Assembly (NCBI GenBank): GCA_003221515.1
Contig: QHSI01000016.1
Coordinates: 1 to 51,053 of the forward strand
Direction of reading: 5' to 3'
Origin: Candidatus Rokuibacteriota bacterium
GTDB lineage: Bacteria; Methylomirabilota; Methylomirabilia; Rokubacteriales; CSP1-6
DNA length: 51,053 nt
Part shown: positions 7,771-19,515 of the stretch, one piece after another
How positions within the stretch are numbered: position 1 is the stretch's first letter
How the letters are laid out: each line of letters starts with the position of its first letter
Made by a program: the position numbers and the translations under genes
The notes under the pieces: generated by a model
Databases searched by the model: none
Seen by the model: only the letters and a program-made list of their open reading frames with translations
What the model was told of the DNA's origin: nothing

Positions 7771-7800
7771 AGTATAGGGGCCACGGCGCGAGGGAGTCAA
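7771..7800 (-). promoter_or_regulatory. Predicted sigma70-type promoter of rny
   Basis: On the minus strand TTGACT (7795-7800) and TATACT (7771-7776) are separated by 18 bases. The first A of the rny ATG is the seventh base after the -10 hexamer, so transcription would begin at or beside the start codon. The -35 hexamer directly abuts the 3' end of the 6S RNA gene. Confidence 0.7.
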
Positions 7801-7985
7801 ATCCCCACCTCTGCCGTGTGCCGAAGGTGTTTCGAACCTGGTATTACCAGGTGGGCGCCGTTAATCGGAGGGCTTCAGGCTTCCCCTTCGAGAGGGGCTT
7901 GCACACCGCCCTCTTCCACAGCTCCCCTTTTGTAAACGAGGTTGAAACGTCCCCCCCGGCATCACGAACAGCGTAGGGACAATCT
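7801..7985 (-). ncRNA. ssrS: 6S RNA (ssrS)
   Basis: The minus strand carries the conserved 6S RNA elements in order: TCCCTACGCTGTTCGTGATG at the 5' side, GGGAGCTGTGGAAGAGGGCG, GAAGCCTGAAGCCCTCCGAT, CCACCTGG...CCAGGTTCGAAAC and CACACGGCAGAGGTGGGGA at the 3' side. The ends pair: UCCCUAC (7973-7979) with GUGGGGA, and GCUGU with ACGGC, forming the closing stem around the large central bubble that mimics an open promoter and sequesters RNA polymerase holoenzyme. Its place between zapA and rny agrees with 6S loci in other proteobacteria-like genomes. Exact ends are estimated. Confidence 0.88.
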
Positions 7986-16248: not shown

Positions 16249-16323
16249 TGGTAGGCTCGGGCGGTTTCGAACCGCCGACCTCCTCTGCGTCAGAGAGGCG
16301 CTCTCCCACTGAGCTACGAGCCT
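16249..16323 (-). tRNA. tRNA-Val (GAC), CCA encoded
   Basis: The minus strand folds as a standard cloverleaf: acceptor AGGCTCG/CGAGCCT, D-stem GCTC/GAGC with loop AGTGGGA, anticodon stem CCTCT/AGAGG around the loop CTGACGC (anticodon GAC), and T-stem GGCGG/CCGCC around TTCGAAA. Discriminator A is followed by genomic CCA (16249-16251). It decodes GUC/GUU valine codons. It lies 25 bases before the proposed thrS start in the same direction. Confidence 0.96.
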
Positions 16324-17418: not shown

Positions 17419-18435
17419 CTACAGGTCTCGATCCATCGCCTGAGCGATCCGGCGTACGCGCTTCATCAGGGCGGCGAACTTGTCTGGCTTGAGCGACTGC
17501 GGACCGTCCGAGAGGGCCTCCTCGGGCTTCGGATGCACCTCGATGATCAGCCCGTCCGCGCCGGCGGCCACACCGGCCATCGCCATCGCCTCGACGAACT
17601 CCCAGTGGCCGGTGCCGTGGCTCGGATCGACGAGGATCGGCAGATGCGAGAGCCGCTTCACGACGGGCACCGCGTTCAGATCGAGCGTGAACCGGGTGGC
17701 GGTCTCGAAGGTGCGGATGCCGCGCTCGCAGAGGATGACGTTCCGGTTGCCGCTCGCCAGCACGTACTCCGCCGACAGGAGCCACTCCTGGATCGTCGTG
17801 GCCATGCCTCGCTTGAGGAGCACCGGCTTGCCCGCCTCGCCGACGCGCCGGAGCAGCGAGAAGTTCTGAACGTTGCGCGCGCCGACCTGGAGGATGTCGG
17901 CGTACTCGGCGACCAGCTCGACCTTGTCGGGCTCCATGACCTCGGTGACGATCGGCAGCCCGGTCTCGCGCTTCGCTTCGGCCAGCAGCTTCAGTCCCTC
18001 GTCCTCGAGCCCCTGGAAGGCGTACGGCGAGGTGCGAGGCTTGAACGCGCCGCCGCGGAGGACGCGCGCGCCGGCGGCCTTCACTTTCTCCGCGGCGTCG
18101 AGCAGCTGCAGCCGCGACTCGATCGCGCACGGGCCGGCCATGACGACGATCTGTGTTCCGCCGATCGTCACGTCGCCGACACGGACCTCGGTCGGCTCGT
18201 CGCGCACCTCACGGCTCGCCAGCTTGTAGGGCTTGAGGATCGGCGTGACCGACTCGACGCATTCGAGCGACTCGAGGCTGCGCAGCGCCTCCTTGCCGCG
18301 ATCGTCGCCCACCGCACCGATCACGGTGCGTAGCGCGCCACGGATCGTGTGGGGGCTGTAGCCCATCGACGTGATCCGATGGCAAACATCCTCGACCTCG
18401 ACATCGGTAGCTCCGGACTTGAGCACGATGATCAT
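17419..18435 (-). CDS. aroF: 3-deoxy-7-phosphoheptulonate (DAHP) synthase, type I-beta
   Basis: 338 residues. An N-terminal ferredoxin-like regulatory domain ([33 protein letters not shown]) is fused to the TIM-barrel catalytic domain with [63 protein letters not shown] and [15 protein letters not shown]. It catalyses the first step of the shikimate pathway from phosphoenolpyruvate and erythrose 4-phosphate. Besides the N-terminal domain, expression is probably controlled by the Phe/Tyr leader-peptide attenuator found upstream (18679-18843), 243 bases before the start codon. Confidence 0.96.
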
Positions 18436-18473
18436 CTTTCTGTCCTTTGTCGCGGGTGCCCTGAGGCCGGATC

Positions 18474-18518
18474 GGACCGAGGGTGGCCTGAGAGAGGCGC
18501 GACCCCGGCTCCGAAACG
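18474..18518. repeat. Element shared with the pheT insertion
   Basis: A 45-base stretch in the aroF leader, ACCGAGGGTGGCCTG ... CCGGCTCCGAAACG, matching 10213-10256 in pheT at roughly four of five positions with a one-base gap. It suggests a dispersed repeat family. The rest of 18436-18678 contains no gene I can support; one short ORF there lacks recognisable features. Confidence 0.6.
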
Positions 18519-18678
18519 CCCGTTCAACCGTCGACCCGGCTCCGCTCGCCCGCTCCGACGCTTTTGCCTTCTGGCGCTACTTCTGGTTCTCGTCCCGTGG
18601 TTCTTGTCTCGTAGCCTCTGCCATCGGCTCCGCTCATCTCATCGCCCGTTCCTTTCAGACGGGCTTGCTGGTCGTCCG

Positions 18679-18755
18679 AAAAACAAAAGGCCGCGGGAGT
18701 GGGCCCGCGGCCTGATATGCGCTGGCGCCGCGGGTGTTCGGCCTGCCCGCGGCCC
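18679..18755 (-). terminator. aroF transcription attenuator (intrinsic terminator with alternative hairpins)
   Basis: Four GC-rich segments follow the leader peptide on the minus strand: segment 1 GGGCCGCGGGC (18745-18755), segment 2 CCCGCGGCGCC (18724-18734), segment 3 GGCCGCGGGCCC (18701-18712), segment 4 CCCGCGGCC (18689-18697). Segment 4 runs into TTTTGTTTTT (18679-18688). Segments 1:2, 2:3 and 3:4 can each pair, the classical layout in which ribosome position on the leader decides between the antiterminator (2:3) and the terminator (3:4). Confidence 0.85.
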
Positions 18756-18765
18756 TCTGTCTAGT

Positions 18766-18843
18766 TCAAGTCAGAGTGCCTGGGCAGACCTCGGTGAAGT
18801 AGAAGAACGTGAAGAATCCGTACCCGCGCGTCGAGGTGCCCAT
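18766..18843 (-). CDS. Phe/Tyr-rich attenuation leader peptide of aroF
   Basis: A 25-codon ORF, too short for usual gene finding: MGTSTRGYG, then FFTFFYF, then TEVCPGTLT and TGA. Five Phe and two Tyr codons fall within nine positions (18796-18822), immediately before the attenuator. Phe and Tyr are the products that normally restrain DAHP synthase, so stalling at these codons when they are scarce would favour aroF read-through. The ATG lies 15 bases after the stop of the upstream membrane-protein gene. I see no strong Shine-Dalgarno or promoter, so transcription may come from within or before that gene. Confidence 0.8.
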   Translation of the reverse strand: MGTSTRGYGFFTFFYFTEVCPGTLT

Positions 18844-18858
18844 AGCGTGTCGGAGAGT

Positions 18859-19515
18859 CTAGCGGTAGTAGTAGAGCGGCAGGCAGAACGCAATCACGAT
18901 CGCCAGAAAGACGATGGTGTAGATGTACTTCTGCTCGGCCACGTGAGCCCCGAAATAGGACGAGATCCACGTGCCCGGGATCCGCGCGAGCGTCGAGACG
19001 ACGGCGAAGAGCCAGAGGGGCATCGGGCTGATCCCGAACAGGTACGACATGATGTCCTTCGGGAAGCCAGGCGTGAAATAGAGGACGAAGCAGATGATCG
19101 CGCCCTCGGCCTCGAGGATGAAGTTCATCCGGTTCCAGTTGTGCTCGCTGAGCCACGGCCGCACGAGCGGCTCGCCCCACTTGCGCCCGACCCAGAAGCA
19201 GAAGAGCGTGCCCATCGTCAGCCCGATCGTCGAGTAGATGAGCCCGAGCCACGTCCCGAAGAGCGCGCCGCCGACCGGCCCGGTGATCTCGCCGGGGATC
19301 GGCGAGATGATCACCTGAAGGGCTTGGATCGCGATGAAGACCAGCGGGGCCATCCAGCCCCACGACCTGACGGTCTCCTTGAGGAACTTCTTGTCCTGAT
19401 AGAGGCGGACCAGGAGCTTGATGATCGGAGCATCGACGACGACGAGCCAGATGACGACGGACAGCAGGGTGAACAGGACGGCCGTGACGATCGCCCACCG
19501 TGCGCGGTCGGTCAT
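18859..19515 (-). CDS. TVP38/TMEM64 (VTT, DedA superfamily) membrane protein
   Basis: 218 residues, largely hydrophobic, with membrane segments near WAIVTAVLFTLLSVVIWLVVV, MAPLVFIAIQALQVIISPIPGEITGPVGGALFG, GLIYSTIGLTMGTLFCFWVGRK, and the C-terminus IYTIVFLAIVIAFCLPLYYYR. The QVIISPIPGEITGPVGGALFGTWLG re-entrant loop and the YFTPGFPKDIMSYLFGISPM segment are characteristic of the VTT domain family. Relatives act in lipid or undecaprenyl-phosphate flipping, but this member's role is unknown. It starts 21 bases after the amidase stop. Confidence 0.88.
   Translation of the reverse strand: MTDRARWAIVTAVLFTLLSVVIWLVVVDAPIIKLLVRLYQDKKFLKETVRSWGWMAPLVFIAIQALQVIISPIPGEITGPVGGALFGTWLGLIYSTIGLTMGTLFCFWVGRKWGEPLVRPWLSEHNWNRMNFILEAEGAIICFVLYFTPGFPKDIMSYLFGISPMPLWLFAVVSTLARIPGTWISSYFGAHVAEQKYIYTIVFLAIVIAFCLPLYYYR

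Follow-up and report, generated by a model that had tools for sequence, protein, structure and literature searches.

Genomic context of the aroF leader

The window (the whole stretch of DNA analysed here, 51,053 nt long) comes from a genome of Rokubacteria (Methylomirabilota), closest among named relatives to MAGs of Candidatus Rokuibacteriota. Its minus strand carries aroF (17419..18435), the putative target of regulation, which encodes a type I-beta 3-deoxy-7-phosphoheptulonate (DAHP) synthase, as judged by scores above the curated cut-offs of both PRK08673 (514 bits, cut-off 335) and TIGR01361 (408 bits, cut-off 267.75). Upstream of it, on the same strand, lies a leader ORF of 25 codons (18766..18843, minus strand; stop codon TGA at 18768-18766) that was recognised from the sequence and from its retention in relatives, and whose peptide reads MGTSTRGYGFFTFFYFTEVCPGTLT. 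Read with the codon table, seven of its codons (Tyr8, Phe10, Phe11, Phe13, Phe14, Tyr15 and Phe16; 18796..18822, minus strand) specify phenylalanine or tyrosine, so that the short ORF holds codons for end products of the very pathway it would regulate. No other short ORF in the 51 kb packs five or more Phe/Tyr into eight codons, and a simulation of 20,000 upstream regions of 700 nt did not once yield an ORF with six. The codon-level constraint described below suggests that the leader is translated.

Further upstream, a membrane protein gene that has lost its C-terminal tail (18859..19515, minus strand) stops 15 nt short of the start of the leader and is a possible source of read-through transcription into it; we take its product to be of the DedA/SNARE-associated type, on a weak match to UptA. 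On the downstream side, an intrinsic terminator stands ahead of the structural gene: the hairpin AGGCCGCGGG-CCCACT-CCCGCGGCCT (18713-18688, minus strand) runs into the T tract TTTTGTTTTT (18679..18688, minus strand). The stretch from the terminator to aroF (18436-18678) is of widely variable length, as the distance from leader stop to aroF spans 93-381 nt across relatives. Two tandem copies of aroF were found in several relatives (L020, L027, L028, L030 and L031), where the leader was seen before one copy only.

The initial annotation of this DNA had described a 25-codon ORF with the run FFTFFYF just upstream of aroF, and a last hairpin followed by a T tract; each of these elements was recovered on the minus strand (ORF 18843-18766, terminator 18713-18688, T tract 18688-18679, aroF start 18435). 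RNA folding, which it had put forward as a check, showed the minus-strand RNA to be more stable than 200 of 200 shuffles (z = -4.6), plus-strand folding having been set aside since aroF lies on the minus strand. The 9+9 bp core of the terminator (GGCCRCGGG/CCCGYGGCC) occurs at two places in the 5.1-Mb genome, the aroF leader and the leader of a pyruvate phosphate dikinase (PPDK) gene, and the notion of a generic terminator core was rejected on this count. The Rfam leaders for Phe, Trp, His, Leu and Thr gave no match at gathering or permissive thresholds (up to E = 10). Elsewhere in the window, also on the minus strand, we recorded a 6S RNA (7798-7982, 88.5 bits) and a tRNA-Val (GAC) situated between a TonB-like gene and thrS (16249-16323).

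Conservation across genomes

A comparison of the regions upstream of aroF in related genomes, likewise proposed at the outset, showed the Phe/Tyr run and the stems to be conserved in 36 Rokubacteria rows (e.g., MGTSTRRIGFFSFFYFAEVRPGTLT, L004; MGSQVRRSGFFFFYFAEVCPGALS, L013). Phe and Tyr are both present in all 36 leaders, and 16 of them contain Trp too. The same leader design was found before aroF in other Methylomirabilota, in individual loci of Syntrophaceae (e.g., NRNFFGYWFYYYYASVCLSLGRTW, L041) and in one Nitrospiraceae genome; the RNA design is present before aroF in at least three phyla. In the six Syntrophaceae rows, Phe, Tyr and Trp are invariably found together.

A covariance model (R1) built from the 36 rows matched 55 of the 57 genomes of the family, and all ten matches that were checked lay just upstream of aroF (eight of them are independent, L179 and L182 being the training contigs of L037 and L035). 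By a second model the element was absent from ten genomes of one sister family, in which one genome matched. At one locus (L023) the RNA has been kept while the leader holds only one Tyr and one Phe.

The layout downstream of the ORF differs among lineages. The first hairpin of Rokubacteria lacks a T tract, so that a relay remains; two tandem terminators are found in Syntrophaceae and several Methylomirabilota, and a single hairpin (segments 2 and 3, as defined below) with its own T tract occurs in L118, L129, L149, L150 and L049. Any evolutionary order of these layout changes would be conjectural.

Two mutually exclusive folds

On the minus strand the leader RNA comprises five segments. Segment 1 (GGUCUGCCC, 18782..18790) lies within the ORF and has segment 2 as its partner, an association extended in the minimum free energy fold by an inner part, CUCUG (18772..18776), that pairs with CAGAG (18759-18755). 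Segment 2 (GCCGCGGGCAGGCC, 18740..18753) uses positions 18748-18740 to pair with segment 1 and 18753-18746 to pair with segment 3 (CCCGCGGC, 18727..18734), which may alternatively join segment 4 (GGCCGCGGG, 18704..18712). Segments 3 and 4 make up the antiterminator, and segments 4 and 5 (CCCGCGGCC, 18689..18697, the 3' arm) the terminator. The four post-stop arms (segments 2 to 5) are regularly spaced in the 36 Rokubacteria loci, at approximately +12, +31, +54 and +68 nt from the stop. The initial annotation had proposed four segments pairing as 1:2, 2:3 and 3:4; these arms exist and pair, but the segments number five, and the first, absent from that scheme, sits inside the ORF.

Two states were defined on these segments, an ON state (1:2 plus 3:4) and an OFF state (2:3 plus 4:5), and both were scored in the alignments, where invariant pairs carry no covariation information. 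In alignment A1, 90.8% of the cells of the ON state are paired (38-50% in slid controls) and 16 cells have changed on both sides, as against 5.3 in shuffles; for the OFF state the corresponding figures are 99.5% paired and 11 double changes, versus 2.3 in shuffles. Taken helix by helix, 98.8% of cells are paired in 1:2, where two pairs have changed on both sides, 72.5% in its inner helix (CUCUG/CAGAG), where four pairs have done so, 99.3% in 2:3, and 100% in 3:4, whose changes are one-sided only. The covariation of 1:2 and 2:3 recurred in the cross-phylum alignment A2. An antiterminator that excludes the terminator, as expected of an attenuator, is accordingly seen here with compensatory change (one-sided in helix 3:4), and this pattern supports the existence of both mutually exclusive folds.

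Ribosome position and the proposed mechanism

We mimicked translation by masking a ribosome footprint at each codon, the RNA being folded as far as segment 3. For most of the Rokubacteria loci, the probability of hairpin 2:3 stayed near 0 as long as the A site was within the aromatic run, rising to near 1 at about the final one or two codons of the run and remaining there through the stop codon. The difference exceeded 0.5 in 31 of 52 loci, poor separation being found mainly in loci of a different layout, and the equilibrium masking test was less clear for those with a single terminator. Once segment 4 is made, 3:4 (-17.0 kcal/mol) is at equilibrium not weaker than 2:3 (-16.3 kcal/mol), so that the switch has to be decided by folding order: the states are separated by folding to segment 3, and are not separated by equilibrium folding to segment 4. 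A dependence on which hairpin forms first is usual for attenuators. The choice of fold by ribosome position was thus reproduced in silico, with this equilibrium caveat.

We propose, with a probability of roughly 0.9, that the leader is a ribosome-mediated transcription attenuator that couples aroF to the supply of charged tRNA-Phe and tRNA-Tyr. A Phe/Tyr leader-peptide attenuator of aroF was what the initial annotation had envisaged, and it gains support from the conservation of the aromatic run, from covariation in both folds and from ribosome-masked folding. When the charged tRNAs are short, the ribosome would stall at the FFTFFYF codons and leave segment 1, at the end of the ORF, free to capture segment 2; segments 3 and 4 would then pair before segment 5 is made, no terminator would form, and aroF would be transcribed. 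When they are plentiful, the ribosome would reach the stop codon and cover segment 1, whereupon 2:3 would pair and segment 4, left without its other partner, would join segment 5; this 4:5 hairpin, together with the U tract behind it, would stop transcription before aroF. The kinetic decision between the two states would fall at segment 3. Comparison among genomes shows the leader, its aromatic codons and the base pairing that underlies each state, and from these we infer its transcription, the stalling and the regulatory response of aroF.

Promoter and expression in the window genome

In 27 of the 36 Rokubacteria rows a promoter-like motif, TTGAC(A/G/C)-N17/18-TANNNT, ends 9-13 nt before the start codon of the leader, a spacing that places the predicted RNA start approximately 3-7 nt before the start codon and makes the transcript nearly leaderless. 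Leaders predicted to be of this kind are those of L003-L026, L035, L037 and L127. A GGAGG-like site precedes the start, usually GTG, in a subgroup (e.g., L027-L030, L113 and L115).

In the window genome a -10-like TAGACT (18856..18861, minus strand) appears, by comparison with L003 and L004, to be the remnant of a promoter that is whole in relatives; its TAG serves as the stop codon of the DedA-type gene. At 18861/18862 approximately 82 nt of L003 and L004 are missing, and with them the tail of that gene and the -35 box. Expression of aroF in this genome may hence depend on read-through from upstream. A genuine attenuator of the lineage that has become impaired or constitutively silent in the window genome through loss of its promoter would agree with this gap and with a promoter search of the window that gave no match, and we grant it a minor share of the probability. 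It is rendered unlikely by the intact state of leader, segments and terminator, by the consideration that transcripts reading through from upstream would remain subject to attenuation, and by the possibility that the deletion is an assembly error.

Alternative readings of the leader

One alternative to the attenuator with an ORF-embedded segment 1 is that only the post-stop arms (segments 2 to 5) act, pairing as the 1:2, 2:3 and 3:4 of the four-segment scheme. The arms are indeed present, regularly spaced in the 36 Rokubacteria loci and able to pair as described, but none is touched by a ribosome stalled on the aromatic codons, and a ribosome that has reached the stop codon covers the first arm alone, which frees segment 3 for the antiterminator. 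Such a device would favour expression when amino acids are plentiful, i.e. it would give the opposite response; hence segment 1 matters and sets the polarity of the switch. Together with the segment in the ORF, GUCYGCC(C), and its partner GGGCRGAC, which covary and persist across phyla, this makes the scheme highly improbable.

The evolution of the ORF bears on a second alternative. In its aromatic half, codons nearly always begin with T, alternate between A and T at the second base (Tyr/Phe), and vary synonymously at the third. In its second half, G-T-C-Y-G-C is fixed at every codon phase, bar the Y, a pyrimidine whose change swaps Cys for Arg with pairing kept; GUCYGCC(C) is fixed as RNA irrespective of reading frame, also across phyla, and the same RNA is read as RRLP in L118 and L129 and as RLSA in L049. 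The aromatic half appears to evolve by codon and the VCP half by RNA, two levels of constraint that become visible together in a single 25-codon ORF. This succession, codon first and RNA second, argues against the idea that the leader end EVCPGALT acts as a nascent-peptide arrest sequence (TnaC/SecM-like) sensing free aromatic amino acids instead of charged tRNA. Strong conservation of the C-terminal part of the peptide within Rokubacteria speaks for arrest, but the GTC-TGC codon positions are all fixed or vary in step with the RNA partner, other frames are laid over the same RNA (L118, L129, L049), and the Phe/Tyr codons are freely interchanged. In these comparisons the peptide was not seen to be conserved apart from its RNA, and on the evidence of frame and codon phase we rejected arrest, to which we accord an even smaller chance than to the four-segment scheme.

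Least probable of all is that the hairpin merely terminates the DedA-type gene, with the ORF as an incidental feature, a view that draws on the 15-nt distance to the leader start and on the loss of the local -35 box in the window genome, but that is contradicted already by the conservation of the aromatic run (itself met in none of the 20,000 simulations) and of 1:2, as well as by the promoter that 27 of 36 relatives have between that gene and the leader, and by an element that stays before aroF across phyla.

Relation to known attenuators

The proposed attenuator shares with those of pheA (pheL) and trp (trpL) in E. coli a leader peptide, control codons, and the choice between terminator and antiterminator. 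It differs from both in that the Rokubacteria element has one extra hairpin before the terminator, and from trp in that the ORF-embedded segment 1 would play the role of trp region 2. The attenuators of ilvGMEDA and thr are multivalent, i.e. codons for two or more end products govern a step that these products have in common; here the codons are those of Phe and Tyr, often joined by Trp, and the step is the initial reaction of the shikimate pathway.

The nearest precedent for leader and target gene is aroR-aroF of Corynebacterium glutamicum, where a Phe-Tyr-Phe leader peptide precedes a DAHP synthase gene (Neshat et al. 2014, via PMC11802643; PMC4046766) and where expression is reported to increase when Phe is limiting and not to respond to Tyr (PMC11802643). 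The likeness concerns leader and target gene, and the phylum is another one. Given this result, the leader in Rokubacteria may sense Phe alone or Tyr as well. In Acholeplasma, the uORFC-13-1 motif upstream of aroF combines a terminator with a predicted uORF that contains Phe codons (PMC8632094), but at least one of its Phe derives from a U run, and both structure and lineage are different. The initial annotation had regarded Phe/Tyr control of an AroF-type enzyme as a notable variant, which holds for the lineage and less so for the principle, in view of the C. glutamicum and Acholeplasma precedents: this kind of attenuator is known, and the new parts are the lineage, the layout and the re-use of the scaffold. 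A literature search recognised no work on leader peptides in Rokubacteria, although both terms do co-occur in one paper. What the locus adds is a well-conserved candidate attenuator at the first step of aromatic synthesis, a control hardly described in Methylomirabilota, Syntrophaceae and Nitrospiraceae (one genome).

Apparent re-use of the scaffold with other control codons

The second strong model match in the window genome (G000:C66:7160-7314, L166; E 2e-10) has a five-segment layout like that of aroF and a Leu-rich leader, and precedes a gene for pyruvate phosphate dikinase (TIGR01828). This combination of Leu leader and PPDK gene held in all 16 such loci examined (L167-L171 and L183-L192 included) and is found in many Rokubacteria genomes (example leader MTLITARVLSLGLILLALPGLPGASAK, L168). 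The arrangement suggests that PPDK may be under Leu control. In masked folding the PPDK leader, too, changes its fold where the run of Leu codons ends.

Weaker model matches in other genomes, accepted at E-values up to about 1e-3 and with inspection, include a WWWW leader before trpE (L208), IVVV-type runs before acyl-CoA dehydrogenase (L209 and L245), a VVV leader before a malate-synthase-like gene (L205), an Ile-rich leader before a branched-chain transporter protein (L210) and a Leu-rich one ahead of the gene for a 2-oxoacid oxidoreductase subunit (L207). Runs of Trp, Val, Ile or Leu codons, followed by a similar RNA layout, were observed in leaders of Syntrophaceae and Methylomirabilota (L204, L205, L207-L210 and L242-L249).

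We consider it an evenly balanced proposition that one scaffold (GUCUGCCC in the ORF, its partner GGGCAGAC in the next hairpin, and CCRYGG hairpin cores) is common to several phyla with its control codons swapped, aromatic for aroF, Leu for PPDK, and apparently Val, Ile or Trp for other genes; that all copies descend from one ancestor is conjectural. If true, an uncultured lineage would wire its carbon metabolism to amino acid supply through one interchangeable RNA switch. The occurrence of the scaffold with other codons, notably the pairing of Leu with PPDK, suggests that amino acid supply governs central carbon flow in uncultured bacteria, and its recurrence offers a testable rule for locating further such switches.

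The TrpE-related gene of the window genome (L252; G000:C64, upstream of 123780-124895, minus strand) is preceded by the leader MIRPSPAQRWWWPPQ, closed by a stop codon, and by two hairpins in tandem. As their core is different, this appears to be a Trp attenuator in its own right.
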